From the NCBI RefSeq assembly GCF_902859645.1, contig NZ_CADIJR010000001.1:1-64000 (forward strand): 64,000 bases of DNA. The letters run 5' to 3'. The DNA comes from Achromobacter insuavis (GTDB lineage: Bacteria > Pseudomonadota > Gammaproteobacteria > Burkholderiales > Burkholderiaceae_B). Made by a program: the position numbers and the translations under genes. Under the pieces are notes generated by a model. That model was given only the letters and a program-made list of their open reading frames with translations. It had not been told where the DNA came from and did not search any database. Every line of letters starts with the position of its first letter. The first letter of the stretch is position 1. Below, one piece after another: positions 33,522 to 48,993 of this stretch.

Positions 33522-33522
33522 C

Positions 33523-35481
33523 ATGGCCGAACCGTTGATTTCGCTGTCCGGGGTACGGCGCGAGTTTCCCGCGGGCGAGCAGACCATCGCCGTCCTCAAG
33601 GACATCAACCTGACCATCGAGGCCGGGGAGATGGTCGCCATCGTCGGCGCGTCGGGCTCGGGCAAGTCGACCCTGATGAACATCCTGGGCTGCCTGGACC
33701 GCGCCACCAGCGGCGACTACCGCGTCAGCGGCCGCAGCACGGGCGAACTGGATCCGGACGAGCTGGCCGAGCTGCGCCGCGAGCACTTCGGCTTCATCTT
33801 CCAGCGCTACCACCTGCTGTCCGACCTGACGGCGCAGGGCAACGTCGAGGTGCCGGCCGTCTACGCCGGCAAGCGCCGCGAGGCCCGGTTGGCGCGCGCC
33901 GCCGAGCTGCTGGAGCGCCTGGGGCTGGGCGAACGCACCGGCCACCGGCCGGGGCAGTTGTCCGGCGGCCAGCAGCAACGGGTGAGTATCGCCCGCGCGC
34001 TGATGAACGGCGGCGACATCATCCTGGCCGACGAGCCGACCGGCGCGCTGGACACGCACACCGGCCAGGAAGTGCTGCGCATCCTCGAGGAGCTGAACGC
34101 CGCCGGCCACACCATCATCCTGGTCACCCACGACATGAACGTGGCGCGGCACGCGCAGCGCATCATCGAGATCAGCGATGGCGAGATCGTCTCGGACCAG
34201 CGCAATCCCGACGCCCCGCGCATCGAGGCGCAGCGCGAGGAGGCGGCGCCGCTGCCGCCGCGGCCGGCCTGGCAGGCCTACCTGGACCGCTGCGGCGAAG
34301 CGCTGCGCATGGCGCTGCTGGCGATGAACGCGCATCGCCTGCGCACCTCGCTGACCATGCTGGGCATCATCATCGGCATCGCCGCGGTGGTGTCGGTGGT
34401 GGCGCTGGGCGAAGGCTCGCGCCAGAAGATCCTGGAAGACATCAGCGAGATCGGCACCAACACCGTCGAGGTGTTCCCGGGCAAGGACTTCGGCGACGAG
34501 AAGGCCGTCAACATCCGCACCCTGGTGCCGGCCGACGCCGAGGCGCTGTCGCGCGAATCGTATGTGGACAGCGTCACGCCCGAAGTCTCCACCAGCAGCA
34601 CGCTGCGTTACCGCAACGTGGCGGTGAACGGTTCGATCCAGGGCGTGGGCGAGCAGTATTTCCGCGTGCGCGCAGTCAAGCTGGCGCAGGGCAAGTTCTT
34701 CGACACGACCAGCGTGGCGCGGCGCGCCCAGGAAGTGGTAATCGACGAAAGCACCCGCAAGACGCTGTTCGGCTCGCACACCGACCCGATCGGCCAGATC
34801 GTGTTCCTGGGGTCGATGCCGGCGCGGGTGATCGGCGTCACCAAGAAGAACGACACCGTGTTCGGCAACAACGAGACCCTGAACGTGTGGATCCCCTACA
34901 CCACGGCGCTGTCGCGCGTGCTGGGGCAGCAGCATCTCAAGAGCATCACCGTGCGCGTCAACGACGCCGCGCCGCCGGCGGCGGCCGAGCAGGCCATCAC
35001 CAAGGTGCTGCTGCGCCGCCACGTGGTGAAGGACTTCTTCGTGTTCAACACCGACGCGATCCGCAAGACCATCGAGCGCACCACCGCGACCATGACGCTG
35101 CTGGTGTCGCTGATCGCGCTGATCTCGCTGATGGTGGGCGGCATCGGCGTCATGAACATCATGCTGGTGTCGGTCACCGAGCGCACCCGCGAGATCGGCG
35201 TGCGCATGGCGGTGGGCGCGCGGCGCAGCGATATCATGCAGCAGTTCCTGATCGAGGCGGTGCTGGTCTGCCTGATCGGCGGCGCCGTGGGCATCGCGCT
35301 GTCGCTGGGCCTGGGCGTGCTGGTGTCCAAGGCCACCGGCGGCTCGTTCCGCATGATCTATTCGACCGCGTCGATGGTGGCGGCCTTCACCTGCTCGACG
35401 CTGATCGGCGTGTTGTTCGGTTATTTGCCGGCGCGCAACGCGGCGCGCCTGGATCCCGTCGAGGCCCTGGCCCGGGAATGA
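33523..35481 (+). CDS. macB: MacB-type ABC transporter (fused ATPase and permease)
   Basis: The 652 aa protein has an N-terminal ATPase: Walker [10 protein letters not shown] near residues 43-51, signature [15 protein letters not shown] near 146 and Walker B/D-loop [11 protein letters not shown] near 167. A first membrane span near residue 280 ([22 protein letters not shown]) follows. After a periplasmic MacB-PCD-like domain come three C-terminal FtsX spans ([20 protein letters not shown] and onward), ending [14 protein letters not shown]. MacB dimers use ATP to drive periplasmic substrates (macrolides, toxins, lipopeptides) through MacA and an outer-membrane channel. Its stop overlaps the nodT-type gene start. 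Confidence 0.96.
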
Positions 35482-36938
35482 GGATGATGAAAGCTGTTTC
35501 CCTGATTTGCAAACCCGCCGCGCTGGCCCTGACGCTGGCCCTGGCCGGCTGCGGCGGCCTGCTCAAGAGCGACTACCACACGCCCGCGACGCAGGCCCCG
35601 GCCGCCTGGAGCCACGGCGCCGGCGCCGACGCGCCGGCCAACGCGCTGGCCGCCGGCGGCGCCTGGTGGCGCAACTTCAACGACCCCGCGCTCGACGGCC
35701 TGGTCGACGGCGCGCTGGCCCGCAACAACGACCTGGCCGCCGCCGCCATCCGCGTGCGCCGCGCTCAGTTGCAGGCGGGCCTGGCGCAGGACCAGCTGAT
35801 TCCGCAGCTGTCCGGCACCGGCAACGTGACGCGCACGCGCAATCTGCGCGGCGAACGCGAGATCACGCGCACCAACAGCGCCGAACTGTCGATCGGCTAC
35901 GAGGTGGACCTGTGGGGCAAGCTGTCGCGCCAGCTCGACGCCGCCGAATGGGAGGCGCTGGCCAGCGAGCAGGACCGCCAGAGTTCGGCGCTGTCGCTGG
36001 TGGGCACCACGGCCACGCTGTACTGGCAGACGGCCTTCATCAACCAGCGCATCGCCAGCAGCCTGGAAAGCATCGCCTACGCCCGCAAGACCCAGGACCT
36101 GGTGCGCGCGCAGTACGCCGCCGGGGGCGCCTCGGCGCTGGAACTGGCCGAGGCCGAGCAGACCGTGGCCAGCCAGCAGGCGGCGCACGCGCTGCTGGTG
36201 CAGCAGCGCGTGGAATACGTCAATGCGCTGACGATCCTGTTCGATGGCCCGCCCGACCGCGTCATGGCCGATCCGCAACGCCTGCCGCAATACCCGCTGC
36301 CGCAGGCGCGCGAAGGCGTGCCGGCCGAACTGCTGGGCCGCCGCCCCGACCTGCGCGCCGCCGAACTGCGCCTGCGCGAGTCGCTGTCGAACATCGACGC
36401 CGCGCGCGCGAGCTTCTATCCGACGCTGAACCTGACCGGCGCGCTGGGCAGCACCAGCCCGACGCTGTCGAATGTGCTGCAGAACCCGGTGGGCACGCTG
36501 ACGGGGGCGCTGACGCTGCCGTTCCTGCAATTCAACCGCCTGAACCTGAATCTGAAGGTGTCGCGCACGGATTTCGATGAGCGGGTGGTGAGCTTCCGGC
36601 AGGCCTTGTACCAGGCGATGGCGGATGTGGAGAACGCGCTGTCGAACCGGACGCAGTTGCGCCTGCAGGCGGAGCAGCTGGAGGCGTCGCTGAAGGCGGC
36701 GCGGGAAGCCGAGCGCCTGTACGAGGTGCGCTACCGCGCGGGGTCGGTGTCGTTGCGGTTCTGGCTGGATGCGCAGGAGAAGCGGCGGACGGCGGAGATC
36801 GCGCGGGATGAGAATGCGTTGAATCGGTTGGTGAATCAGGTGAAGGTTTATCAGGCGTTGGGGGGGGATGATCTTGCCGTCATGGCCGGTTCTGGCGCGG
36901 GCGCGGCCGATGATGGGATCGCGCCGATAGCGCCCTGA
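35478..36938 (+). CDS. NodT/TolC family outer-membrane efflux lipoprotein
   Basis: The 486 aa protein starts at the ATG at 35478, overlapping the macB stop (ATGA). In-frame ATGs at 35484 and 35487 are alternatives. The signal peptide ends in a lipobox (ALALAGCGG), so it is a lipoprotein of the RND/MacAB outer-membrane factor class. Two OEP repeats are visible: [43 protein letters not shown] and [24 protein letters not shown] in the first, and [33 protein letters not shown] and [20 protein letters not shown] in the second. It completes a MacA-MacB-OMF pump encoded in one operon. Confidence 0.95.
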
Positions 36939-37251
36939 AAAAATGCCCTGGCGTCGGCGAACGATATTGCCGGCGCCAGCGTTGAAACCGGATCGCGTTC
37001 GATCCAAGCATCAACTTCGATATCGGCACGGGCAGTTCGCAAACTGACCCGCAGCACTTCGGCCTGTTTTCGAATCGTCGCCCATGCCGTCAGATTCGGA
37101 CGGTTTCACCCGATGCAATAGAAGACGGAAAGCAGCGTCAGCCGACGCTGAATCATGAAGGCCGTCGCTACAATCTATTGACCGCGCAATACCCCCCGCC
37201 AGACTGATCACGTTCACTGAAACGGCCGATCGCCATCACCGAATGCTCAGA
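36939..37251. other. Intergenic region between the efflux operon and the lysR gene
   Basis: The first part holds a hairpin, CTGGCGTCGGC (36948-36958) with GCCGGCGCCAG (36969-36979), one wobble pair. Its T tract faces the minus strand, so it is better placed to stop leftward transcription. On the minus strand an open stretch (about 37110 to 36851, running into the nodT end) reads like a protein fragment (AWATIRKQAEVLRVSLRTAR) with no start site or complete length. It may be a decayed gene. I did not recognise the family. Confidence 0.4.
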
Positions 37252-38163
37252 ATGAATTTGCGACTGCTGAAGTACTTCGCTGTGTTGGCCGACGAGTTGA
37301 ACTATCGCCGCGCCGCCGAACGGCTGCATATTGAAATCTCGCCGTTGTCTCGGGCGATTCAATCGCTGGAAACCACCTTGGGGGTGTCTCTTTTTGTGCG
37401 CTCCAACCGCGGCACCCTGCTCACGCCGGAGGGGGAGGCGCTACGGGAACACATCCCGGCCATATTCAGTGCAATCGGTCAGGCGCGCGACAGCGTCCTA
37501 GGCGTGGCCGTTGGCAATCGCGGCGCGCTACATATTGCCCTGTCAGAAGGAATGAACCCGACGCGATTGGCCGCGTTGATGGCCGGTTGCCGCGCGGACG
37601 AGCCGCGCGTGGTCATCCATTTTTCGGAGGTGCCGTTCGCCCAGCAGCTCGCAGGCCTGGACCAAGGCCTTTACGACCTGGGTTTCGCGCCATCCGACCA
37701 CGTGGGCCGCGGCATCGTGGCTGAACGAGCCTGGCAAGACCCGATCCATGTGGTCCTCCCCACCGGCCACCCGTTGCTGGCGATGGAAGTGATTCCCTTG
37801 AGCGAGGTTCTCAGGCATCCCCTGGTACTTGGCGATCCGAAGTATTGCGAGGGATGCCGCCAGCAAATCGACCGCTTGATCAGTAAGGGTTCGGCCCAAC
37901 CTCTCGTGGCGGCGCAGGTGCAGTCGACCTATCTCATGCTTTCGATGGTGGCCGCTGGCGTCGGCCTCGCACTGGTGGGCGCTTCCCAGGCCCTTTCAAA
38001 CTGGGAACTCGGCATCCTCAGCCGCCCGCTGGCCGAGCCGGCGGCGTTGACGACTTGGCTCCTGCGCTCAACCCGCGTCGCACGCCAGAACGTGACGCGC
38101 TTCGTTGAGCGGGTGATTGTCATGCGCGAAGACAGCACCTTCCCACCTTCCCGTGCGCGGTAG
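37252..38163 (+). CDS. LysR family transcriptional regulator at the edge of the A/B-exporter locus
   Basis: The 303 aa protein starts at the ATG at 37252 (MNLRLLKYFAVLADELNYRRA); an ATG three codons earlier is also possible. The winged helix-turn-helix is at residues 1-60 (LHIEISPLSRAIQSLETTLG). The effector domain begins near residue 92 (LHIALSEGMNPTRLAALMAG) and includes GDPKYCEGCRQQIDRLI with a nearby Cys pair. Base composition is lower in GC than the efflux operon to its left. It is oriented toward the A/B cassettes and may control them, but no experimental or divergent-promoter evidence shows this. Confidence 0.9.
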   Translation: MNLRLLKYFAVLADELNYRRAAERLHIEISPLSRAIQSLETTLGVSLFVRSNRGTLLTPEGEALREHIPAIFSAIGQARDSVLGVAVGNRGALHIALSEGMNPTRLAALMAGCRADEPRVVIHFSEVPFAQQLAGLDQGLYDLGFAPSDHVGRGIVAERAWQDPIHVVLPTGHPLLAMEVIPLSEVLRHPLVLGDPKYCEGCRQQIDRLISKGSAQPLVAAQVQSTYLMLSMVAAGVGLALVGASQALSNWELGILSRPLAEPAALTTWLLRSTRVARQNVTRFVERVIVMREDSTFPPSRAR

Positions 38164-38207
38164 ACGGCAAGCATCGGCGCGTGAACCCAGCTCGAACACA
38201 TTTACTC

Positions 38208-38355
38208 GTTACCTTTTGGGTCCCGCATGTTTCTCATAAGGCAACGTGATGGACCATTCTCCGTTCTAGATTGAAAGATCCAATTCTTTGCCTTTGTAGC
38301 GCTTTTTAAAAAGAAGCCCGTGGCATCAATTGTTTTAATCAATCAGGAGCTGCTT
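38208..38355 (+). promoter_or_regulatory. Conserved leader of cassette copy 1 (upstream of gene A1)
   Basis: From GTTACCTTTT (38208) to the A1 start, the DNA is closely similar to 40241-40389 and 42438-42582, so the promoter was duplicated with each copy. Shared blocks include GTTTCTCATAAGGCAAC, TCTAGATTGAAAGATCC and the ribosome-binding segment AATCAATCAGGAGCT just before GTG. No promoter hexamers can be assigned with confidence. Confidence 0.55.
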
Positions 38356-39210
38356 GTGCAAGTATCCACTTCAACGCTATCTGGTCCGAGCGGCCCGCTC
38401 GGTTTCAACTATTCGTCGACGCAGTTCACCAGCGAAAAAAACGGTGAAGCCTGCTTCACCGAAATCATGGGTTCGGTGAAGCAAAAATATCTCGAAAGTC
38501 CAGCAGCGCCGAAGGTGGTGAACTTTTCTGATAAGGCCCTGGCACTGTCAAGTCAAGAAACGGAAATTGAGGATGCGGATCTCGGCTTGTTGGCGTGCTG
38601 GACACCTGCTGGGTTGGCACGCTTTGCTAATAACTACACAGAGGCCGAGCAGTATCACCAACTCGATATTATGGTCTTCAATAGCTATTATTCGCCCATC
38701 TATGATTGTAGTGAGGCGATGTGCGGAGGTCCAACATATTATTCCACTACGAGAATTTCGGTCACGCCTGAAAGTGAGGCGTTTGATAAACGGCAGCACG
38801 ATCTATTCTCTGCTCAACAGAGAGCCATGTATGCCTCTGAAATTAGCAAGGGTAGTTCACCAATGGATATTTACAAGAAGATCGGGAAATTGATCTTGTC
38901 TCAGCCGGACGGCTTTGCCGACAAATTTGGACTCACGGTGAAATTTCGCGAGAGATTGGATGCTATGTCTCAACTAGAGGCGTATGGCAACTCACCTGAA
39001 GGACGTAGCCATTCGCTTTCCCCTAAGTTTGACCATGCTGGCGAGCCAAAGATTGAAAAAAAGTTGATGCAGATGAAGGCCGGACTTTCGCGCAATGCTT
39101 TGCTGCAGAAGGCAGATCATCTCAAGCAGGATAGGCAGTATGTCCTGATGAACCTGCTGTACGGAATGGGAAACCCTATGATGAAACCTGCGTCAGGTCA
39201 CCGGGCGTAG
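38356..39210 (+). CDS. Cassette protein A1, unknown function
   Basis: The 284 aa protein is unrecognised. The GTG at 38356 follows CAGGAGCTGCTT, and the same GTG and site occur in A2 and A3. The frame is open 12 codons further here only because a stop codon present in the other copies is changed. No signal peptide or membrane span. Features shared by A1-A3: LSGPSGPLG near residue 8, CWTP near 81, a segment with MVFN-x2-YSP-x2-DCSE, YY-x-TTRI-x-VTPESE near 128-140, and DIYKKIGKLILSQPD near 170-184. A variable Gly/Ser-rich part follows, then a helical C-terminus. The two conserved Cys are notable. GC is far below the chromosome average. Intrinsic terminator downstream. Confidence 0.85.
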   Translation: MQVSTSTLSGPSGPLGFNYSSTQFTSEKNGEACFTEIMGSVKQKYLESPAAPKVVNFSDKALALSSQETEIEDADLGLLACWTPAGLARFANNYTEAEQYHQLDIMVFNSYYSPIYDCSEAMCGGPTYYSTTRISVTPESEAFDKRQHDLFSAQQRAMYASEISKGSSPMDIYKKIGKLILSQPDGFADKFGLTVKFRERLDAMSQLEAYGNSPEGRSHSLSPKFDHAGEPKIEKKLMQMKAGLSRNALLQKADHLKQDRQYVLMNLLYGMGNPMMKPASGHRA

Positions 39211-39269
39211 GTCATCAATCTGGAATACTTACCCTGGAACGCCTTTCGGGGGAGTGCTCCGTTAGGAAT

Positions 39270-39301
39270 AATACTCGATGAGTTTCATCGAGTATTTTTT
39301 T
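39270..39301 (+). terminator. Intrinsic terminator of gene A1
   Basis: Perfect 12-bp arms AATACTCGATGA (39270-39281) and TCATCGAGTATT (39285-39296) have a 3-nt loop and a run of T to 39301. It separates A1 from B1. Confidence 0.93.
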
Positions 39302-39326
39302 CGCCACTATTCGGGTGATTTTTGTC

Positions 39327-39516
39327 TGACCGATTTGGTCATGTGTGTTCTAAAAATTGCAATATATGTGGTCGTTGTTGAGCTCAAATTGAGATGTGGG
39401 CCGTCAATTTTCTCACCCTGCCTGTTGAACAAGCTCTCGAAGCATAAGTCGTGTCATGGTGAAGTCGGCATAAGTTGCTGATTGATACGTAGCTCACATA
39501 CCTCAGGAGATATTTT
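39327..39516 (+). promoter_or_regulatory. Promoter/operator region of gene B1
   Basis: A perfect inverted repeat TGACC-GATTT-GGTCA (39327-39341) is followed by GTGTTC and an AT-rich TTGCAATATA block. The same order occurs before B2 (41409) and B3 (43587). The ribosome-binding site CAGGAGA is 8 nt before the B1 ATG. The repeat is probably a regulator site next to the promoter. Between the terminator and the B1 start I see no other gene. Confidence 0.6.
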
Positions 39517-39927
39517 ATGAAAGTTCGGTTGTTGCGTGTTTTGGTGATTACGTCAATTTTGTTTTCGGGCACCGCGTTTGCTGGTGATTATGTATGGTCA
39601 ACATATAAGAGTGGCGACTACGTATCAAGAAGAGGAGGAACCGCCACGGTTGTGTACCAACCTAGTAATTTTCTAATTTCCCCAGCTGGAAAGACAATCA
39701 CCGGCGTGCAAATCCAGCTTCAAGATAGTCCCCAGGCAAACGTGTCGATGCGGGCTTGCTACAACGGCCCGCTTGATTGTGTCTCGTTGTCCTATGATGG
39801 GCAAATCTCCAAAGCTTTTAACGGTAAGCCAGCAGATAAGCCATTTACGGTGACATATACAGGTACCGGCGTTGGGCCGTATCCGCGTTATATCCTTGCC
39901 ACGATGGTGGTTTATTACAGCGATTAA
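39517..39927 (+). CDS. Cassette protein B1, secreted FlhE-like small protein
   Basis: The 136 aa protein has a Sec signal peptide (residues 1-22, ending in AFA) and a mature part of 114 aa. The mature N-terminus GDYVWSTYKSGDYVSRRGG is identical in all three copies. Cys81 and Cys88 in ACYNGPLDC probably form a disulfide. The pattern C-x6-C, a GQ-x3-x-FNG stretch, a GP-Y-P turn and a C-terminal VVYY strand resembles the flagellar periplasmic protein FlhE, a small beta-sandwich. That match is by eye only. The start is supported by CAGGAGA. It precedes a broken ATPase stub. It may be periplasmic cargo or a chaperone for the exporter. Confidence 0.88.
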   Translation: MKVRLLRVLVITSILFSGTAFAGDYVWSTYKSGDYVSRRGGTATVVYQPSNFLISPAGKTITGVQIQLQDSPQANVSMRACYNGPLDCVSLSYDGQISKAFNGKPADKPFTVTYTGTGVGPYPRYILATMVVYYSD

Positions 39928-39940
39928 CTAAATCCTTGGG

Positions 39941-39975
39941 TAGCGAATTATCGTGGATCCGACGATAAGTCGCTA
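39941..39975 (+). terminator. Hairpin after B1 (conserved position)
   Basis: TAGCGAATTATCGT (39941-39954) pairs with ACGATAAGTCGCTA (39962-39975) with one mismatch. Copies 2 and 3 have a matching hairpin in the same place with altered arms. There is no T tract, so attenuation or RNA processing is more likely than full termination. Confidence 0.55.
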
Positions 39976-40011
39976 TAAATCTATTCGAGCCAGTTCTTGA
40001 CTATATGACTG

Positions 40012-40216
40012 ATGCGGATTCCAGAGACGTCGGGTGATCCGCTTATTCAAATCAGACATCTCAGTCATGTCTATTGCATGGGCGATCAATCCTTAAGCGT
40101 ACTGTGCGACATGACGCTCGAGATCCATCCCGGTGAAACCTGCGCGCTGCTTGGGGCGTCCGATTCCGGCAATCGCACCTTGCTTGGCAATGCTCGACCG
40201 GTCGTCGGCGGTCATT
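40012..40216 (+). pseudogene. Broken MacB-type ATPase stub, copy 1
   Basis: About 68 codons match the start of the complete ATPase gene at 44275: PLIQIRHLSHVYCMGDQSLSV, then [12 protein letters not shown]. The Walker A motif is ruined (GASDSGNRT instead of GASGSGKST, losing the catalytic Lys). A deletion after it changes the frame, and homology stops near 40216 where the leader of cassette copy 2 begins. It cannot make a working ATPase and marks a duplication junction. Confidence 0.9.
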
Positions 40217-40240
40217 GCCTTCGAGTTGGGAGCCCATGCA

Positions 40241-40389
40241 TTACCTTTTCGGTCCAGCACGTTTCCAATAAGGCAACATGCTAGGTCACGAACTGCTCTA
40301 GATTGGAAAGACCCAATTCCCTGCCATTTGTACCGTCTTTGGGCGAGATGCCGATGGCATCAATGGTCTGAATCAATCAGGAGCTGCTT
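40241..40389 (+). promoter_or_regulatory. Conserved leader of cassette copy 2 (upstream of gene A2)
   Basis: It matches the leaders of copies 1 and 3 (TTACCTTTTCGGTC, GTTTCCAATAAGGCAAC, CTCTAGATTGGAAAGA, AATCAATCAGGAGCTGCTT). An in-frame five-codon mini-ORF (ATG at 40354, stop at 40369) lies just before the A2 start. Similarity to copy 3 extends about 25 bp further left, so copies 2 and 3 share a more recent junction. Confidence 0.55.
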
Positions 40390-41241
40390 GTGCAAGTATC
40401 CAATTCAACGTTGTCTGGTCCGAGCGACCCGCTCGGTTGCTACTATTCGTCGGCCCGGCTCACTAACGACGCGAATGGGAAACCCCATTTCACCGAAGTC
40501 ATGGGTTCTGCGGAGAAAAAATATCTCGAAAGCCCTCCGTCATCGAAGACTGTGGCCTTGTCTGATAAGGCGGTGGCGCTGTCAAGCCAGGAGACCGAAG
40601 ATGAGGATGCGGATCTTAGCTTGCTGGCGTGCTGGACACCGGCTGAGCTGGCGCGCTTCACCAGGAACTATACGGAAAGCGAGCGGCTCGAGGAACTGGA
40701 TATTATGGTTTTTAACAGTCAATATTCGCCAGGATGCGATTGCAGTGAGCTTACTGCAGATGGTGGCCAGATTTACTATGCGACTACGAGGATTCCGGTT
40801 ACCCCAGAAAGTGAAATTGTCGATAGGCGGCAATCGGATACGTTCGTTGCGCAGTTGAAATCCATGTATAAGGCCGAAAGGAACAAGGGCAGCTCAGCGC
40901 TGGATATCTATAAGAAGATCGGAAAATTGATTCTGTCTCAGCCGGATGATTTTGCTTATAAGTTCGGATTCAGTGTCACGTTTCGCGAGAGGGTGGAGTC
41001 CATGCAATGGGGAGGGCGTGCTAACCCGGTCGAACGGCAGCACGGTGAGTTGTTTACCCGTAGTCATGCTGCTTCAGACGAATCGGATGTCGCGATGTTG
41101 ACAAAAATGAAGGATAGGTTTTCGCACAACAAGCTGCAACAGAGAACACATGATATGGAGCGAGACAGGCAGCATCAACTGATGGACCTGCTGTATGGGA
41201 AAGTGAACCTTAAGTCGAAACCCGCAGGTCGCCGGGTGTAG
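40390..41241 (+). CDS. Cassette protein A2, unknown function
   Basis: The 283 aa protein is a paralogue of A1 and A3, with GTG start at 40390 after AGGAGCTGCTT. The N-terminal 20 residues and the DIYKKIGKLILSQPD block are nearly identical to the others. The middle and the 205-245 region (NPVERQHGELFTRS) diverge freely, with different length. CWTP and DCSE cysteines are kept. Arg/Lys/Glu-rich C-terminus. No signal peptide, membrane span or known motif. Its own hairpin follows. All three copies remain open frames despite divergence, which argues for selection on protein function. Confidence 0.85.
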   Translation: MQVSNSTLSGPSDPLGCYYSSARLTNDANGKPHFTEVMGSAEKKYLESPPSSKTVALSDKAVALSSQETEDEDADLSLLACWTPAELARFTRNYTESERLEELDIMVFNSQYSPGCDCSELTADGGQIYYATTRIPVTPESEIVDRRQSDTFVAQLKSMYKAERNKGSSALDIYKKIGKLILSQPDDFAYKFGFSVTFRERVESMQWGGRANPVERQHGELFTRSHAASDESDVAMLTKMKDRFSHNKLQQRTHDMERDRQHQLMDLLYGKVNLKSKPAGRRV

Positions 41242-41250
41242 ATCAGGTTC

Positions 41251-41283
41251 TTCCGAAAAATGCGCACGTCGCATTTTTCGGAA
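41251..41283. terminator. Hairpin after gene A2
   Basis: Perfect 14-bp arms TTCCGAAAAATGCG (41251-41264) and CGCATTTTTCGGAA (41270-41283) with a 5-nt loop. It has the same position as the A1 and A3 terminators but unrelated sequence. The T5 lies inside the right arm, so efficiency is uncertain. Confidence 0.6.
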
Positions 41284-41408
41284 AGGCGTCGGCAGAGGGA
41301 TTTGCCGAGCCTAATGAGATGGTCAGCCCGAACCCCGCTTGGCGTAGCGCTTCGTGGGTATTCGGCTGACCATAGCTTTTTATGGCTAGGGTAAAAACCA
41401 TATTTTTC

Positions 41409-41590
41409 TGACCGATACGGTAACGCGTGTTCCCAAAATAGCAATAAACGACGCCGTTGCTGCGTTCAAATTGATGTGCAGGTTGTCAACCTGTCCACCC
41501 CGTATATTGTCAAGCTGAAAGCAAGTCATCTAAGGGGGGCATCAATCGGTGATTGATGCGTAGTTTCATACCTAGCCCTGGAGAGATACC
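41409..41590 (+). promoter_or_regulatory. Promoter/operator region of gene B2
   Basis: The inverted repeat here is TGACC-GATAC-GGTAA (41409-41423), with one position off the perfect form seen before B1. It is followed by GTGTTCCCAAAATAGCAATAAACGA, matching B1 and B3. GGAGAGA precedes the B2 ATG. The 41284-41408 segment between the hairpin and the repeat contains nothing else recognisable. Confidence 0.55.
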
Positions 41591-42001
41591 ATGAAAACCC
41601 CATTGCTGCGTGCATTGGTTATTACTTCGCTTTTTTTCTCTGGCAGCGCGTTTGCCGGTGATTATGTGTGGTCCACCTATAAGAGTGGCGACTATGTGTC
41701 GAGAAGAGGAGGAACCGCCACGGTTGTGTATCAACCTAGCAATTTCCTTGTCTCGCCAGTGGGGAAAACAATCAAGGGTGTGCAAATTCAGCTTCAGGAT
41801 AGTAGCCAGGCAAGCGTATCAATGCAGGTTTGCTATAACGGTCCGTTTGATTGCATTCCTTTATCCAATAACGGGCAGATATCGCAGTATTTTAATGGCA
41901 AGCTTGCCGATAAGCCGTTCCATGTGAAATATACTGGTACAGGGATCGGGCCATATCCTCGCTATATCCTTGCTACGATGGTGGTGTATTACAACGACTG
42001 A
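41591..42001 (+). CDS. Cassette protein B2, secreted FlhE-like small protein
   Basis: The 136 aa protein is a paralogue of B1 and B3. Signal peptide residues 1-22 end in AFA. The mature start GDYVWSTYKSGDYVSRRGG and the stretch GPYPRYILATMVVYYND are the same as in the other copies. Cys81 and Cys88 are kept (VCYNGPFDC). Differences cluster around residues 77-115, near the putative disulfide loop, which may be the variable recognition surface. A broken ATPase stub follows. Confidence 0.88.
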   Translation: MKTPLLRALVITSLFFSGSAFAGDYVWSTYKSGDYVSRRGGTATVVYQPSNFLVSPVGKTIKGVQIQLQDSSQASVSMQVCYNGPFDCIPLSNNGQISQYFNGKLADKPFHVKYTGTGIGPYPRYILATMVVYYND

Positions 42002-42013
42002 GAAAACTGCAAT

Positions 42014-42053
42014 GGATGGCGATTTTTGTTGATTTGAAAATAAATCGCTATCC
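42014..42053 (+). terminator. Hairpin after B2 (conserved position)
   Basis: GGATGGCGATTT (42014-42025) pairs with AAATCGCTATCC (42042-42053) with one G-U pair. The sequence differs from copies 1 and 3 but the pairing is kept, suggesting selection on the structure. Confidence 0.5.
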
Positions 42054-42087
42054 GAAATATATAAGCTGATTCTGGACCTCGTGGCCG

Positions 42088-42285
42088 ATGCAGAGCAAAG
42101 ATGCGTCGTCGGGCCATCCGCTCGTTCAAATCACGCATGTCAGCCATGCCTATCGCATGGGCAGCCAATCCGTATCCGTGCTGCGGGACGTGACTCTCGA
42201 GATCCATCCCGGCGAAACCTGCGCGCTGCTTGGGGCGTCCGGTTCCGGCAAGAGCACCTTGCTCAATATCCTGGGCTTGCTCGAC
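42088..42285 (+). pseudogene. Broken MacB-type ATPase stub, copy 2
   Basis: The first 66 codons match the complete ATPase at 44275, including an intact Walker A (GASGSGKST) and [10 protein letters not shown]. Homology ends near 42285. The frame then runs through unrelated sequence to a stop at 42468 (126 aa in all). It lacks the signature motif, Walker B and D-loop, so it cannot hydrolyse ATP. A short translated product with a Walker A could still be made. Confidence 0.88.
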
Positions 42286-42437
42286 CGGCTTTGCGGACCG
42301 GTTCCTACCTGGGAAACCCCGCTAGGGGGGGGCAACTCCCGGCAACAGAAAAACCTCATCAGGTTGACTAGCCATTGCCGGGCGAATTGCTCCCTATGTG
42401 CGCAGTGGGTACCGCCTTCGGGTGGGTTGCCCGTACG

Positions 42438-42582
42438 TTACCTTTTCGGTCTGGCGCGTTTCTTATAAGGCAACGTCAAAGGCCACTCGCCGTTCTAGAT
42501 TGAAAGATCCATTTCCCTGCCCTTGTGCCTATTTGGAGAACAGCCAATGGCATCAATGGCTTGAATCAATCAGGAGCTACTT
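42438..42582 (+). promoter_or_regulatory. Conserved leader of cassette copy 3 (upstream of gene A3)
   Basis: GTTACCTTTTCGGTC, GTTTCTTATAAGGCAAC, TTCTAGATTGAAAGATCC and AATCAATCAGGAGCTACTT match the copy 1 and 2 leaders. As in copy 2, an in-frame mini-ORF of five codons (ATG at 42547, then TGA) lies before the A3 start. Confidence 0.55.
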
Positions 42583-43425
42583 GTGCAAGTATCCAATTCA
42601 ACGCTGTCAGGTCCGAGCGGCCCGCTCGGTTTCAACTATTCGTCGACGCGGTTCACTACGGACGCGAATGGGGAAGCCCGCTTCACCGAAGTCATGGGTT
42701 CTGCGAAGCAAAAATATATCGAAAGCTCCCCCGCATCGAAGGCCGTGACCCTGTCTGATAAGGCGGTGGCGCTGTCAAGCCAGGAGGCTGACGACGAGGA
42801 TGCAGACCTGAGCTTGTTGGTGTGCTGGACACCTGATTGGTTGGCTCGTTTTGCCAATCAATATACAGAGGCCGAACAGTATGAACAACTAAAAACCTGG
42901 GTTTTTAATGATTATTCTCCTGGATTTGATTGTTCTGATTATATTCGCGGAGGAGATTTATATTATGCAACAACTAGAATTCCGGTTACTCCTGAAAGTG
43001 AGATGATAGATAAAAAACAATCCAATGCATTTGTTGCTGACCTGAAATCGATGTATGCAGTCGAGATGAGTAAAGGCAGCTCGGCGATGGATATCTATAA
43101 AAAAATAGGAAGATTGATTCTGTCCCAGCCGGATGATTTCGCATACAAATTCGGATTCAGTGTCAAGTTTCGAGAGAAGGTGGAGTCTATGCCTCAATGG
43201 GGAGGACATGGCGATCCGTTCAAGGGGGGCGGCGGTTCTTTCTCCTTCAAATATGACCCGCCAGGCGAATCAAAGGACGGGACCCTGATGCAGGCTAAGG
43301 ATGGGTTTTCACGCAGAATGTTGCTACAGATGGCGCATGATATGGAACGGCATAGGCAATATATCCTGATGGATTTGCTCTATCGTAGTGTGAATCAACA
43401 ACCGACGTTGATATCTGGTCTTTGA
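42583..43425 (+). CDS. Cassette protein A3, unknown function
   Basis: The 280 aa protein is a paralogue of A1 and A2, with GTG start at 42583. Conserved blocks: LSGPSGPLGFNYSS at 8-21, FTEVMGS, LSDKAVALSSQE, CWTP at 81-84, DCSDY at 116-120, TTRIPVTPESE at 130-140, KGSSAMDIYKKIGRLILSQPD at 164-184 and FRE near 197. A Gly-rich variable stretch (WGGHGDPFKGGGG) follows near 206. The C-terminus ends differently (QPTLISGL) from A1/A2. Its codon use is the most AT-rich of the three. It lies upstream of the only complete exporter, so it may be the ancestral copy. Confidence 0.85.
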   Translation: MQVSNSTLSGPSGPLGFNYSSTRFTTDANGEARFTEVMGSAKQKYIESSPASKAVTLSDKAVALSSQEADDEDADLSLLVCWTPDWLARFANQYTEAEQYEQLKTWVFNDYSPGFDCSDYIRGGDLYYATTRIPVTPESEMIDKKQSNAFVADLKSMYAVEMSKGSSAMDIYKKIGRLILSQPDDFAYKFGFSVKFREKVESMPQWGGHGDPFKGGGGSFSFKYDPPGESKDGTLMQAKDGFSRRMLLQMAHDMERHRQYILMDLLYRSVNQQPTLISGL

Positions 43426-43480
43426 ATGTAGATTGTTGGCTCTGGATTTGTTCTGCTGTAATTCTTATGGAAGATATGGT

Positions 43481-43509
43481 GCCCGATTAATATCGTCGGG
43501 CGTTTTTTT
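43481..43509 (+). terminator. Intrinsic terminator of gene A3
   Basis: GCCCGA (43481-43486) pairs with TCGGGC (43496-43501), followed by G and seven T residues. It takes the same position as the A1 terminator with different sequence. Confidence 0.82.
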
Positions 43510-43586
43510 AGATAAAGTGCGTTGATGGTGCTTTTTTTATGTGCTGAAAAGCTGCTGGTAATGATTTGGTCGATGTTTCTGTGGTC

Positions 43587-43777
43587 TGACCTATTTGGTC
43601 GCTAGTGTTCCAAAAATAGAAATATGCGATGTTCTTTATGCGCTCCAATTGAAGGACAGGTTATCCAATCTGTTCACCTTGTGCGTTGATAAGGCGATAG
43701 CGGTAGAAGCCATCCCGCGGGTGAGTCCGGCATCAGTCAATGATTGATATGCTGTCTGTATTTTGTGGAGAAATCTA
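43587..43777 (+). promoter_or_regulatory. Promoter/operator region of gene B3
   Basis: TGACC-TATTT-GGTCG (43587-43601) matches the inverted repeat before B1 except for the last base. GTGTTCCAAAAATAGAAATATGCGA follows. GTGGAGAAA precedes the B3 ATG at 43778. The AT-rich segment from 43510 to 43586 shows no other feature. Confidence 0.58.
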
Positions 43778-44188
43778 ATGAAAAATAAGTTGCTGCGTTT
43801 TTTGGTTGTTGCTTCGCTGTTGTTCTCCGGTAGTGCGTTTGCCGGTGATTATGTGTGGTCCACTTATAAAAGTGGCGACTATGTGTCACGAAGAGGAGGC
43901 ACCGCTACTGTTGTTTATCAACCTAGCAATTTTCTTGTCTCACCAGTAGGAAAGAAAATTAAAGGCGTTCAAATTCAAATTCAGGATAGCTCACAGGCAA
44001 ATGTGTCGGCGCTGGTTTGCTATAACGGTGGGGTCAGTTGCGCCTCGTTATCCTCGAGTGGGCAGATATCCCATTATTTTGACGGAAATTCTGCTGATAA
44101 GCCGTTTTCTGTAACGTATACCGGGACAGGTGTCGGGCCATATCCTCGTTATATTCTTGCCACGATGGTGGTTTATTACAACGACTAA
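43778..44188 (+). CDS. Cassette protein B3, secreted FlhE-like small protein
   Basis: The 136 aa protein starts at the ATG at 43778, aligned with B1/B2. A TTG five codons earlier would spoil the signal peptide. The signal (MKNKLLRFLVVASLLFSGSA) ends in AFA. The mature part keeps GDYVWSTYKSGDYVSRRGG, Cys81/Cys88 (VCYNGGVSC) and the VVYYND end. It is followed, after a hairpin, by the complete exporter operon, so B3 is encoded directly upstream of the working ATPase. I infer that B proteins reach the periplasm by Sec and could then be taken by a MacB-type exporter. Confidence 0.88.
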   Translation: MKNKLLRFLVVASLLFSGSAFAGDYVWSTYKSGDYVSRRGGTATVVYQPSNFLVSPVGKKIKGVQIQIQDSSQANVSALVCYNGGVSCASLSSSGQISHYFDGNSADKPFSVTYTGTGVGPYPRYILATMVVYYND

Positions 44189-44202
44189 GAGAGTTGTAAT
44201 GG

Positions 44203-44239
44203 ATAGCGACTTATCTTCAATTTGACGATAAGTCGCTAT
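44203..44239 (+). terminator. Hairpin after B3 (conserved position)
   Basis: Perfect 13-bp arms ATAGCGACTTATC (44203-44215) and GATAAGTCGCTAT (44227-44239) lie between B3 and the ATPase gene. There is no T tract. It could limit read-through from the strong B promoter into the exporter genes. Confidence 0.58.
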
Positions 44240-44274
44240 AAAGAGATATAAGTCGATTCTGGACCTTGTGACTG

Positions 44275-44994
44275 ATGTGGATTGCAGATTCGTGGGGCCA
44301 TCCGCTCATTCAAATCACACGTGTCCGCCATGCTTATCGCAAAGGCAGCCAATCAGTAAGCGTGCTGCGCGATGTGACACTTGAGCTCCACCCCGGCGAA
44401 ACCTGCGCGCTGCTTGGGGCGTCCGGTTCCGGCAAGAGCACCTTGCTCAATATCCTGGGCTTGCTCGACCGGCCGTCGGCCGGCCAGCTCCTGTTTCGCG
44501 GACGCGACATGCTGGGTATCGACGAGAACGCCCGCGCCTGGGTTCGCAATCGAGAGATCGGGTTTGTTTTTCAGTCCTTCAACCTGTTGCCCCGTATGAA
44601 CGCCCTCGATAACGTTGCCTTGCCACTGTTCTATCGTGGTATCTCGCGAGCCCAGGCGCGGGCCACGGCCATGGATTGGCTTCGTCAAGTTGGATTGGCC
44701 GATCGCGGCGGGCATCTCCCTGCCGATCTCTCCGGCGGGCAGCGCCAGCGGGTCGCCATTGCCCGCGCCTTGGTCGGCAATCCCTCCGTCATTCTTGCGG
44801 ACGAACCGACCGGTAATCTGGATCAAGCTTCAGCCGAGAGCATCATGGCCTTGCTCATGGGGCTGAATCGCGAGCGGGCGGTCACGATCGTGATGGTGAC
44901 GCATGATGCCAACCTAGCTGGCCGCTTCTCGCGCCAGCTTCATGTGCGCGACGGTGTATTGCATGAACCCTGCCACTGCGATGAAAGACGTTGA
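44275..44994 (+). CDS. MacB/LolD-type ABC exporter ATPase (complete copy)
   Basis: The 239 aa protein has Walker [10 protein letters not shown] at 48-56, Q-loop [12 protein letters not shown] near 97-108, signature [15 protein letters not shown] from 152, Walker [13 protein letters not shown] from 172 and H-loop [10 protein letters not shown]. It belongs to the LolD/MacB ATPase branch that drives periplasmic or membrane substrates outward. Unlike the MacB at 33523, the permease is a separate protein. GC is much higher than in the A/B genes and close to the chromosome. Its 5' end was copied with the A-B cassette, giving the stubs at 40012 and 42088. The ATG has only a weak ribosome-binding site. 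Confidence 0.95.
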
Positions 44995-45000
44995 TTTCCG

Positions 45001-46203
45001 GTGTTCCGGTGCATGCGCGGTCCATCGCTGACGCAAACTGCGCTGCAAGCGGCCGACAGCCTGCGCCAAATGGGTCGCAGGGCCTTGTTGGCTTTGCTCG
45101 GCATCATGGTCGGCAGCACCGCCATCATCGCGCTCCTGAACATCGGGCATAGCGCCGCCGAACAGGTGATGCGCATGTTCAAGGACATGGGTACGGACGT
45201 CCTGGTGGTGACTTTCCCGGTGACGGGCGCCAAGCCGCGCGCGCTGCCCCGCACGCTGGATGCCGGCGCGTTGGCGCAAGCCGTGCCGGGCATCCGCCAT
45301 GCGGCGCCCCTGTCGGTCTACAACGTGCCGCTGCGTTTCCCGGGACGTACGATGGTTCCCAGGATCGTAGGCACGACGCCGGATCTTGCCGCCGCGATGA
45401 ATCTGCGCATGGATCGCGGCCGTTTCCTGTCGCCGTTCGATCGTCATGCCACGTTTGCCGTCGTCGGTGCGGAAATCGCGCGTGAACTGGGCAGTCCGGC
45501 GCATCCGCTCGCCCTGGGTGCCTCGCTGCAAATTGACGGCTACTTTTACCAAGTCATCGGCGTCACGCGCAGCATGAAGGGGAATCCGCTGATTCCGGTC
45601 GATGCGGACCGATCGGTGATCGTTCCCATTGAAGGGCTGCACCGATTGTTTCCCAAGCCTGAACTCGGCGCCATCCTGGCCAGGGCGACGCCTATGGCCG
45701 ACCTTGTGGAAACGGCCAGCGCGCTGCGCGAGTATGTCGGCGCGCAGGTGCCCGGCAGGGAGGTCCAGGTGGATATTCCCCGGCAGTTGATCGACGGTCT
45801 CGAGCGCCAATCCCGTACCTTTTCATATCTGCTCGCGGGGCTGGGCGCGATCTCATTGCTGGTGGGCGGTGTGGGCGTCATGAACGTGATGCTGATGAGT
45901 GTTTCCGAAAGGCGGCGCGAGATCGGCGTTCGCCTGGCGCTCGGGGCGACCCGGCGCGACATCCGCCTGTTGTTCCTCGCCGAGGCGGGTCTGTTGGCCA
46001 TTGTGGGCGCGGCGCTGGGCGCAGTGTTCGGCGTTGGCGCGGCCTACGCTTTTGCGCGCTTCTCCGGTTGGGATTTCGTGCTGGCGCCCGCGTCCTTGCC
46101 CTTGGGAATGGGCACGGCGCTGCTGACGGGCCTGTTCTTCGGTTGGTATCCGGCCGCCGCGGCTTCGCGGCTGGAGCCTGTCCAGGCCTTGCGCGATGCG
46201 TAG
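45001..46203 (+). CDS. MacB/FtsX-type ABC exporter permease
   Basis: The 400 aa protein could start at GTG 45001 or at ATG 45013; neither has a good ribosome-binding site. It begins 6 bp after the ATPase stop. An N-terminal span (LLALLGIMVGSTAIIALLNI) leads into a periplasmic MacB-PCD-like domain of about 230 residues. Three C-terminal FtsX spans follow: LAGLGAISLLVGGVGVMNVM with the loop MSVSERRREIGVRLALGATR, then two more, ending SRLEPVQALRDA. This is the type that transmits ATPase motion to the periplasm without carrying substrate across the inner membrane. It is expected to act on substrates already in the periplasm. Confidence 0.93.
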   Translation: MFRCMRGPSLTQTALQAADSLRQMGRRALLALLGIMVGSTAIIALLNIGHSAAEQVMRMFKDMGTDVLVVTFPVTGAKPRALPRTLDAGALAQAVPGIRHAAPLSVYNVPLRFPGRTMVPRIVGTTPDLAAAMNLRMDRGRFLSPFDRHATFAVVGAEIARELGSPAHPLALGASLQIDGYFYQVIGVTRSMKGNPLIPVDADRSVIVPIEGLHRLFPKPELGAILARATPMADLVETASALREYVGAQVPGREVQVDIPRQLIDGLERQSRTFSYLLAGLGAISLLVGGVGVMNVMLMSVSERRREIGVRLALGATRRDIRLLFLAEAGLLAIVGAALGAVFGVGAAYAFARFSGWDFVLAPASLPLGMGTALLTGLFFGWYPAAAASRLEPVQALRDA

Positions 46204-47677
46204 TGCGGTGCGGATGCTCATCGTGGCGCTTGGGTTGGCGGCGCTGTCACCCGTGGCACGCGCGGGTGATGAGCCGTTGCCGTCTCGCCCGACCATGCGG
46301 TATCAGGCGCCGGCCGTGTTGGGCGAAGGCGTCGTCGATCTGACTTTGACAGATGCCGTCTTTCTCGGCTTGCGCGCCAATCGCGGCATACGCAGCGCCT
46401 ACCTGACCCGCGTGGCGCAGAAGTTCGACCTGCGCGTGGCCGAGGATTTCTTTTCGCCCAAGCTTCTCGTCACCGGGCAGATCACCGGAAACCGCAATCA
46501 GGACGACCGTTCGCGGCAGGGATTGCTCTCGTCCGCGGCAACGATGGTGGGGGAATTCGGCACGCGTTTCAGCCTGGGTTGGACGAGCCAATTGAGCAAT
46601 GCCAACCGGGCGGGCGGGTTCCGGGACGACGGCGTCACGCTCGCGATCATCCAACCCTTGCTGCGTGGCGCGGGCCGTGAGGTAGCAACCGCGCCCTTGC
46701 GCATGGCGCGCCTGATCGAGCAAAGCAATCGGCTGACTTTGCAGGATTCGGTTTCCCAGGCCGTTACGCAGATCGTCCAGGCCTACTGGCAATTGATGCG
46801 GGCGCAAGAGCAAGTCACCATCGCCAAGGCGGCATTGCAGCGTTCCAAAGCGCTTCTGGAGATCAACCAGGCGCTGATCGCCGCCGGACGCATGGCGCAG
46901 GTCGACTTGGTGCAGACGGAGGCCGATGTGGCCGCCCAGGAATTCAATGTCGAGAATGCCGATAACGATCTCAACGCCTGCCGATTGATGTTGCTGCAAC
47001 TGCTGGCCCTGGATCTGCGCAGCCGGATCCGGGCCAGCGACACGCCAGGGAAAAAGCCCTCGACGCTCAGCGTGCAGGATGCTCAGCGCATCGCGTTGAC
47101 GCACCAACCGCGGTATTTGCAGCAGGTGATCGCCCGGGAACAGGCCGATATCAATCTTGTGGTCGCGCGCGACAACCGCCTGTGGGATGTTTCCCTGATG
47201 GGCGGCGCCAGCCAAGGGCGGACAAGGCGATCGAGCCATTCGGAGGCGGTGTCCGATCGCCATTGGGACGGGTATGTGGGTGTCCAGGTCCAGATACCGA
47301 TCGGGGACCTGAGCGCGCGACAGGCTACCGTCCATGCAAAAGCCGACGCGGACAACCAGGCGCTGCTGCTCGAAGACGCCGAACAGCAGTTGGCGCTGGA
47401 CGTGAATAACGCGGTGCGGGAACTGGCCTCGCGATGGCGCCAGTACGAAATCGCGGGGCGCGTCCGCGATCTTTCACGCAAGAAGCTCGAGATCGAACGC
47501 CAGAAACTGCAGGCAGGACGATCGAGCAATTTTCAGGTGCTGGCCTTTGAAACCGATCTACGCGGGGCGGAGAACGCCCGACTCAATGCCTTAATCCGCT
47601 ATCTGGATGCACAGGCGCAGTTGGACCTGAAGCTTGGCATGACATTGCAAAGTTGGGGTATCTCGCTGAATGACTAA
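46196..47677 (+). CDS. TolC family outer-membrane channel of the A/B-linked exporter
   Basis: The 493 aa protein overlaps the permease stop by 8 bp. A Sec signal (MRSAVRMLIVALGLAALSP, cleavage near ARA) is present, with no lipobox. The OEP pattern includes LTLTDAVFLGLRANRGIRSAYL, IIQPLLRGAGREVATAPLRMAR, QDSVSQAVTQIVQAYWQLMRAQEQ and, in the second half, LSVQDAQRIALTHQPRYLQQ, VQIPIGDLSARQ and LQAGRSSNFQVLAFETDLR. The conserved IQPLLRGAG and NFQVL segments are typical of type I secretion-like channels rather than NodT lipoproteins. It gives this locus its own exit channel, separate from the macAB-nodT set. Confidence 0.93.
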   Translation: MRSAVRMLIVALGLAALSPVARAGDEPLPSRPTMRYQAPAVLGEGVVDLTLTDAVFLGLRANRGIRSAYLTRVAQKFDLRVAEDFFSPKLLVTGQITGNRNQDDRSRQGLLSSAATMVGEFGTRFSLGWTSQLSNANRAGGFRDDGVTLAIIQPLLRGAGREVATAPLRMARLIEQSNRLTLQDSVSQAVTQIVQAYWQLMRAQEQVTIAKAALQRSKALLEINQALIAAGRMAQVDLVQTEADVAAQEFNVENADNDLNACRLMLLQLLALDLRSRIRASDTPGKKPSTLSVQDAQRIALTHQPRYLQQVIAREQADINLVVARDNRLWDVSLMGGASQGRTRRSSHSEAVSDRHWDGYVGVQVQIPIGDLSARQATVHAKADADNQALLLEDAEQQLALDVNNAVRELASRWRQYEIAGRVRDLSRKKLEIERQKLQAGRSSNFQVLAFETDLRGAENARLNALIRYLDAQAQLDLKLGMTLQSWGISLND

Positions 47678-48944
47678 GCTCTCTGCCTATCCATCCGGCC
47701 TGATGGCGGCGGGCGTGGCCCTGCTTGCCGTCGCGGCGATCGCCTTTGCATGGCATCGGCCGCCTGGCGGCAGGGCGCAAGATAAACCCTCGCCCTGGAC
47801 ACTGGTTTCTCCTCGGCCGGCCGAGCTTCGCCTGGGCGTGGCGGGAAAGATCGTTTCGGCGCAGATCGTCACAATCACGGCGCCCTTCGATGGCAATATC
47901 AAGTCGCTTGAGGTGTCGGAAGGGCAGTGGGTGGAGGCGGGCCAGCGCCTGCTCGAGATGGATGTGACCGAACTCGACATACAGCGACGCCAGGCGCTGA
48001 GCGAACAGATCAAGGCGCGCAAGCTCCTGAGCGACATCGATCACTGGGAGTCTGGCCCTGACGTCGCCCGTGCTCGTCAAACCCTGTCGAGCGCGCGTCT
48101 CAGTGTGAGCGACACGCATCAGAAGCTGGTTGAGACCAGGCAGCTCTATAAGCGCGGAATCGTGCCCCGCATGGAGCTGGATGCGTTGATCCAACAGGAA
48201 AAGATGCAATCCCTGTCGGTGGCCTCGGCAGAGGCGGAAATCGCCAACGCCCGGGAGCGCGGCAAGGGGCAAGCGCGGCAACTCGCGGAAATGGCGGTGG
48301 CCAATGCCACGGCCCGGCTCAATGCGCTGGCCGATGAGGCCTCCGGCGTGGTGGTGGCGCCGTTTTCGGGTGTCGTGATCCGCGTCCCGGGCAACGGCGA
48401 TGGCAGGCGGGACGCCGCCGGAGAGCCATTGTTGGCGGGCGCCAAGGTTGGGCAGGGCCAGGGGCTGTTGGCTATTGCCAACGTCGCGCGGGTCCATGTC
48501 GTGGCCAAGGTCGACGAGACGGATCTCAATCAGCTGCGTCCAGGCCAGCCGGTGGAAATACGTGGCGAAGGATTCAGGGACCTGGCGCTTTCCGGCGAAT
48601 TGGAATCGATCGGGGTGCAGGGACTCGAAGGAGACTCGCAGGCGGGCACGATGTATCCGGTAGTGATTGCATTGCCGCCGCTGACGGCGGCGCAACAGGC
48701 GGTGGTGCGGCTGGGAATGACGGCGAGCGCCTCGATCGTGATCTTTCATGATGAGCAGGCGATGGTGGTGCCGGCCACGGCGATTCGTACTGGCGCGGGA
48801 AAGAGCCTTGTCCGGTTTCGCGAATCGGCAAGCTCCCCCGAGCGGTCGGTCGTGGTCTCGGCCGGGCCGGCCACGCCGGACGGGGTGGTCGTGACGGGCC
48901 TTGCACCGGGTTATGTCCGGGATGAATGGCAACCTTCGCCCTGA
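47670..48944 (+). CDS. HlyD/MacA-type membrane-fusion protein of the A/B-linked exporter
   Basis: The 424 aa protein overlaps the preceding gene by 8 bp. It has one N-terminal membrane anchor (GLMAAGVALLAVAAIAFAW). A first lipoyl half is near 65-95 (ITAPFDGNIKSLEVSEGQWVEAGQRLLEM), then an alpha-hairpin of about 140 residues, then the second half (GVVVAPFSGVVIRVPGNGDG) and a beta-barrel domain (VHVVAKVDETDLNQLRPGQPVEI, MVVPATAIRTGAGKSLVRF). It completes the exporter: ATPase, permease, outer-membrane channel, adaptor, all overlapping or spaced by a few bp. The gene order differs from the common macA-macB-OMF order. Confidence 0.93.
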   Translation: MTKLSAYPSGLMAAGVALLAVAAIAFAWHRPPGGRAQDKPSPWTLVSPRPAELRLGVAGKIVSAQIVTITAPFDGNIKSLEVSEGQWVEAGQRLLEMDVTELDIQRRQALSEQIKARKLLSDIDHWESGPDVARARQTLSSARLSVSDTHQKLVETRQLYKRGIVPRMELDALIQQEKMQSLSVASAEAEIANARERGKGQARQLAEMAVANATARLNALADEASGVVVAPFSGVVIRVPGNGDGRRDAAGEPLLAGAKVGQGQGLLAIANVARVHVVAKVDETDLNQLRPGQPVEIRGEGFRDLALSGELESIGVQGLEGDSQAGTMYPVVIALPPLTAAQQAVVRLGMTASASIVIFHDEQAMVVPATAIRTGAGKSLVRFRESASSPERSVVVSAGPATPDGVVVTGLAPGYVRDEWQPSP

Positions 48945-48978
48945 AAAGACCCGGGGGGGATCGCCCGACGCGCGCCCA

Positions 48979-48993
48979 TATAAAATACCCCCC
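48979..48993 (+). promoter_or_regulatory. -10-like element at the tcdA start
   Basis: TATAAAAT (48979-48986) lies only 8-15 bp before the tcdA ATG, separated by a C-rich tract with no ribosome-binding site. If it is a true -10 box, transcription would begin at or next to the start codon, giving a leaderless mRNA. Confidence 0.4.

Follow-up and report, generated by a model that had tools for sequence, protein, structure and literature searches.

Results

Gene content of the cassettes and the exporter

The window analysed here, 64,000 nucleotides of Achromobacter insuavis (contig NZ_CADIJR010000001.1, positions 1 to 64,000), carries a genomic island in which three tandem pairs of genes, designated A and B, precede a single complete set of exporter genes encoding an ATPase, a permease, a TolC-type channel and an HlyD-type adaptor (Table 1). 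The original prediction, made from the letters and open reading frames (ORFs) alone, had described this arrangement together with a low guanine-plus-cytosine (GC) content of the A-B units, Sec signals and two invariant cysteines in B, a lack of family matches for A and a stronger conservation of B than of A. The order of the genes was borne out by the ORFs and their Pfam matches, and each of the other features was likewise recovered, as detailed below.

Each repeat unit spans about 2.1 kb and consists of an upstream box, A, an intergenic stretch, B and the beginning of the ATPase gene, and successive units are spaced by 2.03-2.20 kb. Units 1 and 2 each close with a 5' stub of the ATPase gene, the P-loop of the unit 1 stub being also altered as judged by eye, and an intact ATPase gene is found only after unit 3. 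In the 6.8 Mb genome of this strain, A and B have three matches each, all at the island. As the start of A1 at position 38320 seemed too early, the A genes were assigned by eye to a common ribosome-binding site followed by GTG, which places their starts at 38356, 40390 and 42583. The terminator-like hairpin behind A1 is a weak call because the region contains 11 such sites against a mean of 9.0 in shuffled sequences. Units 1 and 3 share an inverted-repeat pair (39941-39976 and 44203-44238) located between B and the ATPase sequence, and each of its arms is, as judged by eye, itself a hairpin.

The four exporter genes are contiguous, lying nearly adjacent to each other or overlapping by 8 nucleotides, and make up the complete gene set of a MacB-type (type VII) tripartite exporter, with a MacB_PCD/FtsX permease, an ATPase, an HlyD adaptor and a TolC channel.

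Table 1. Features of the island and its cassettes (window coordinates)
Feature	Position	Strand	Remarks
Acquired island	36873..48963	.	Low GC; absent from the equivalent site in relatives
LysR-type regulator	37243..38163	+	Named by eye from translation; inside the island
Conserved upstream box, unit 1	38207..38297	+	Repeat comparison
A1	38356..39210	+	Unsignalled protein; GTG start, placed by eye from the common ribosome-binding site
Terminator-like hairpin after A1	39270..39296	+	Weak
B1	39517..39927	+	Sec signal, two Cys, distant FlhE homologue
ATPase 5' stub, end of unit 1	40012..40209	+	39937-40209 is 76% identical to 44200-44480
Upstream box copies	40239-40329 and 42436-42526		65% and 82% to copy 1
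A2	40390..41241	+	
B2	41591..42001	+	
ATPase 5' stub, end of unit 2	42088..42289	+	42008-42289 is 84% identical to 44195-44473
A3	42583..43425	+	
B3	43778..44188	+	
Exporter ATPase, complete	44275..44994	+	ABC_tran E 7.2e-34
MacB-type permease	45001..46203	+	MacB_PCD E 6.8e-29, FtsX E 5.6e-22
TolC-type outer-membrane channel	46196..47677	+	OEP E 6.5e-38
HlyD-type adaptor	47670..48944	+	HlyD_3 E 3.4e-17

Linkage of small Sec-signal proteins to one clade of permeases

Used as a query, the island permease matched 12 plasmid records at E 1e-40. Among 39 permeases, the 14 from the plasmid, Achromobacter and Alcaligenes loci used lay on one side of a branch with a support of 100/99, and this clade, which includes plasmids of alpha-, beta- and gammaproteobacteria, is different from that of the window's own fused MacB. 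Nine of the 12 plasmid records were read (a record interrupted at its origin and two that nearly duplicate others were omitted), and four of the 14 clade loci (the window, L044, L045 and L047; loci and genomes are denoted by L and G numbers) were found through A or B.

A gene encoding a small protein with a Sec signal and two or more cysteines, on the same strand, within 1.5 kb upstream and with all start codons allowed, was present in 11 of the 14 clade loci compared with 2 of 24 other MacB-type loci (Fisher p 1.9e-5). Counting each lineage once gave 7/10 (p 6.5e-4), and the ten loci found via the permease likewise gave 7/10. The link between B-type proteins and the exporter is thus borne out beyond the source genome, in one clade. 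The control loci were 9 of 13 other matches from one search and 15 of 24 non-self matches from another. Under an earlier rule (either strand, 4.5 kb, no requirement for cysteines), which missed the permease in L102, L107 and L151 and after which the hydrophobicity limits were also changed, the counts were 10/14 for the clade, one being a lysozyme, and 6/24 for the controls. In two control loci (L138:6235-6639 and L139:6273-6677) a small Sec cysteine protein was seen directly downstream of the permease.

The proteins encoded in this position are not all alike. Those of the enterobacterial and Deefgea loci align with the FlhE-like profile of B described below (probability 79.5%, E 1.5e-5), the two of the Pantoea plasmid locus L104, annotated as FlhE by NCBI, match it more strongly (probability 95.7%, E 9.4e-9), and the type present in L094 does not match it (4%). 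An flgE gene (L104:11882-13087) adjoins the exporter and the two FlhE-annotated genes on this Pantoea plasmid. A DNA match to the Citrobacter locus was absent from the E. coli genomes searched.

That the exporter is paired with a small Sec protein across the clade fits two-step secretion of the kind reported for the enterotoxin STII and for CexE, and the occupation of one slot by unlike sequences fits a slot for cargo. The reading we favour, with confidence about evenly balanced, is that the island is a dedicated two-step secretion module with the small secreted protein B as its cargo. The gene content, repeat structure, island, permease clade, B-type linkage, mosaicism and purifying selection are direct observations, from which we infer the cargo, its route and the role of A as follows. 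As its signal sequence suggests, B would be delivered by Sec to the periplasm, where it would fold with one disulphide; the MacB/Lol-type ATPase and permease would then drive the folded B outward via the HlyD adaptor and the TolC-type channel, to the cell surface or the medium. A would start in the cytosol, as a mosaic companion with a conserved, recombining head of 80 residues and a variable tail. For A our guess, a weak one, favours a role in this secretion event itself, either as a partner or as a second product, over that of a toxin neutralised by B. The earlier interpretation of the locus is therefore supported in part: the link of the B-type gene with the exporter stands, B is a presumptive cargo, and the alternative of effector and immunity pairs, already disfavoured in the original prediction, has lost further ground (see below).

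Several points weigh against two-step secretion of B. The signal-peptide test was a home-made rule that was revised once; no B-type gene was seen in L107, and in L101 and L102 it lies, by eye, elsewhere in the cluster. Two of the clade exporters look damaged, L047 having a short TolC ORF and no visible adaptor and L091 being interrupted by a transposase region. Unsignalled A-like proteins were recognized by eye in 10 of the 14 clade loci, which the export of B alone does not explain. MacB-type pumps export small molecules as well. Lastly, FlhE-like relatives of B are common without an exporter, so that proteins of this type may be capable of a resident periplasmic job. Remnants of an exporter, which count in favour of the secretion module, were found in two of seven exporter-less loci with A-like or neighbouring genes (L048 and L093) and in none of the other five.

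B proteins and their resemblance to FlhE

B1-B3 possess Sec-like signals, as judged by eye and by a heuristic, and two cysteines, C81 and C88, are invariant in 20/20 aligned B sequences including the three of the window. In the profile searches suggested along with the original prediction, the 20-sequence B profile matched the Salmonella FlhE structure 4qxl (E 2.4e-6) with both cysteines aligned, and 12 of the 20 sequences matched the FlhE family PF06366 at E up to 1, the best at 4e-9. B therefore shares with FlhE the Sec signal, the size and the two cysteines, but it falls under the curated Pfam cut-off of 25 bits (B1 reached 18.3 bits; B2 and B3 had no match) and lies outside any flagellar operon, no flagellar genes in the FlhE-typical order after flhB-flhA, or any others, being seen by eye at the locus. 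By profile comparison B is thus a distant homologue of FlhE and not FlhE itself.

Of the 268 family genomes searched, 41 contain relatives of B and 6 contain A, and B1 of the window had no match in plasmids. Thirteen of the 15 B places that were read further had a B gene and no exporter match among the printed ORFs, five on each side. The original prediction had named frequent occurrence of A or B homologues away from an ABC exporter as an observation that would speak against it, and this was found in part, namely at these 13 places, for the A relatives in G057 and G398 and for nine plasmid records of the enterobacterial A-like family described below; the linkage within the permease clade stands beside it.

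According to PMC11247099, FlhE domains are scattered across a dozen phyla and FlhE has been proposed as a periplasmic chaperone in Salmonella; the main text of that paper contains no word starting with 'ABC', and among open-licence papers none was found linking FlhE-like proteins with MacB-type exporters. The proposed chaperone role, the many orphan FlhE-like genes and the position of flgE on the Pantoea plasmid L104 are all compatible with B being a resident periplasmic helper of the exporter, whose cargo would then be another molecule, such as the product of A or a small molecule. We consider this rather unlikely, as B-type sequences unlike each other occupy the one slot and no biosynthetic genes were seen by eye among the ORFs of the island.

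Distribution of the A proteins

In line with the original prediction, searches of Pfam, NCBIfam, PHROGs and solved structures gave nothing credible for A. Single weak matches were dropped, both for the A proteins of the window and Alcaligenes (OspG kinase, E 0.11; CH domain, 0.03; CdiA_C, 0.08) and for a set of 24 A-like proteins (BESS, 8e-4; SMC, 1e-3; TBCA, 4e-3; one member each). None was found in the plasmids, phages or viral contigs searched for A. The six family genomes with A comprise three of the genus, two of Alcaligenes and one of another genus. One row of a 13-row A alignment, present also in the named-family scans and in a further A-like set, is an ORF of a different family termed 'YDDSG' (L048:7503-8297), which A profiles do not find; it lies beside ATPase pieces and so led to the plasmid loci. 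The same alignment underlies the structure profile, the scan of the order, in which A occurred in 1 other of 349 genomes, and the single-peptide-pattern scan of genome contigs, which gave 2 loci; the 'YDDSG' row is absent from the clade, Sec-neighbour and mosaicism counts. No other A was found among 369 genomes of the class.

In G199 the A match lies on the minus strand (ORF L048:8935-9468) beside ATPase remnants. Alcaligenes pakistanensis (L047) has B, A, the ATPase and the permease together with the short TolC ORF mentioned above. Alcaligenes G057 has the order B-A-A (L046) with no adjacent exporter, its exporter sitting elsewhere (L094) with two other Sec proteins, and G398 has A alone, again without an adjacent exporter. 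A-like genes of the clade fall into several families: profiles built for Achromobacter/Alcaligenes, for enterobacteria together with Deefgea and for Azospirillum are mutually unmatched. The Azospirillum locus L102 carries three tandem A-like copies. The enterobacterial family was found in 15 plasmid records, six of them among the 12 exporter records; the other nine, eight of which are from Pantoea, are not, which argues against a constant linkage. A protein of 791 residues on the IncP plasmid pALTS33 (L090:6410-8785) is matched by both the 'YDDSG' and the enterobacterial A-like profiles. On a Shewanella plasmid (L093:6777-9038) an HlyD adaptor remnant adjoins two 'YDDSG' genes and the gene for a cysteine-bearing Sec protein, resembling a decayed exporter locus.

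A lacks a Sec signal and has small non-polar residues near its start. The recognition motif of the flagellar gate, at least 30 residues into the protein, has the consensus F-x-x-x-hydrophobic, and F34-T-E-[VI]-M is present in 8/8 Achromobacter A genes examined, a truncated ninth being excluded, with F34 nearly invariant in the 13-row alignment. A could be exported by the flagellar type III gate as an early-type substrate and escorted by B through the periplasm to the exporter, and the likeness of B to FlhE and the flgE gene of L104 are in line with this. We rate it as very improbable: the motif is short, the one weak FlgM match (E 0.18) among the 24 A-like proteins belongs to a protein that is not an A homologue, and no flagellar genes were seen by eye in the island. 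Fainter still is the prospect of a hybrid route in which A would pass the flagellar type III gate, the FlhE-like B would hold it in the periplasm and pass it to the dedicated MacB-type exporter, head-tail recombination between the tandem cassettes providing surface or antagonistic variety. Export of B itself remains our preferred reading.

Selection on the cassettes and mosaicism of A

Protein identities to copy 1 are 57 and 61% for A and 82 and 79% for B. Nonsynonymous divergence (dN) is 0.22-0.30 and synonymous divergence (dS) 0.95-1.39 between the A copies, the respective values for B being 0.10-0.13 and 0.83-1.25. With dN well below dS, and dS near 1, the units go back to old duplications and their genes have been kept; purifying selection acts on all A and B copies.

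Two close relatives, G040 and G009, carry the same set in different copy numbers. G040 has four A genes, of which one is broken, and three B genes, of which one is without a normal start; in G009 two A genes stand with a single B gene and a remnant of B. In both genomes, nucleotide identity between units is 93-97% over the first 80 codons of A (88-93% at third positions) and only 57-62% over the rest (43-44% at third positions); the step is smaller in the window, with 78-86% for heads and 63-66% for tails. Between genomes, A3 and unit G040d agree at 347/365 positions of the upstream region and head and at 406/593 of the tail (p 9.4e-26). A2 is close to unit G040b in the tail (616/654), the intergenic stretch (332/356) and the start of B (139/141), and less so in the upstream region and head (261/316) and the rest of B (203/269; p 1.7e-11), the segment borders behind both p values having been picked after the identity profile was viewed. 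Heads, tails and B ends therefore differ in history and recombine, and the A genes are mosaics in which a head of 80 codons is exchanged among tails that have diverged. The common head suggests a shared contact. Of the expectation that copy number and diversity are kept for a biological reason, retention by purifying selection and recombination is the part that stands.

A constant head with a variable tail, followed by a small Sec-exported partner in tandem cassettes on an acquired island, is also what would be expected if A were a polymorphic effector against which B confers immunity in the periplasm, the exporter secreting A or being unrelated. This we hold to be distinctly improbable. G009 has an intact A (L045:6802-7650, its tail 90% identical to that of A2) next to a B reduced to residues 95-136, although its other B could cross-protect it. 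A2 and G040b have tails that are 93% identical beside B loops of 58% identity, an argument softened by the B of G040b matching from residue 12 only, with its normal start gone, so that it may be decaying. In addition, B is more conserved than A, three clade loci (L094, L103 and L104) have the exporter and a B-type gene without an A-like gene in the stretches read, and MacB-type pumps are not known to accept unsignalled cytosolic proteins. Distances between A tails and between B proteins correlated with r 0.66 (24/5040 permutations as high), which was given no weight as it concerns seven units with two near copies.

Boundaries of the island

The element extends further than originally described, from about 36873 to 48963, and its 12.1 kb comprise a LysR gene, likewise positioned in L044 and L045, the A-B cassettes and the exporter. 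It is absent from the corresponding site in 5/5 Achromobacter relatives fetched, in which the flank matches end at 36872-36886 and resume at 48964-48980, leaving gaps of 75, about 390, 635, 689 and 879 bp that contain no match to island sequence. The GC content is 0.559 for the island and 0.46-0.51 for the A-B units, compared with 0.683 outside the island. The close approach of the flanks in the relatives and the low GC content mark the element as acquired. A separate set of MacB and outer-membrane channel (32000-36872) abuts the left side of the island and was matched in place in the same five relatives.

Discussion

If B is indeed the cargo of its exporter, our results would add a clade of dedicated MacB/Lol-type exporters, present on an island and on plasmids of three classes of proteobacteria, and their small Sec cargo could be read from the adjoining gene. 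FlhE-like proteins would thereby gain a testable job outside the flagellum, and tandem cassettes that shuffle a common head with variable tails would be placed beside a protein exporter.

Two known systems come close to this arrangement. According to PMC5985334, STII takes the Sec route, gains disulphides and exits by MacAB-TolC, so that a tripartite MacB-type pump acts on a Sec-delivered, disulphide-bearing small protein, as proposed here for B. The island differs in that ATPase and permease are separate genes, the small-protein gene is linked, the order is ATPase-permease-TolC-adaptor and the permease lies outside the clade of the window's fused MacB. The other is the Aat system of enteric bacteria, which, according to PMC7943197, exports CexE and Aap (dispersin), small Sec proteins, by means of a LolC/E-like ABC permease, an ATPase, a TolC homologue and an adaptor, and which also resides on plasmids and islands. 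At the level of linkage the same arrangement, a small Sec protein beside permease, ATPase, TolC and adaptor, is found here, the likeness being one of description and gene linkage; no AatD-like N-acyltransferase was seen by eye among the ORFs of the island (36873-48963). The present loci are set apart from Aat by FlhE-like or other small proteins in the cargo slot, by unsignalled mosaic companions and by the repeated A-B cassettes.

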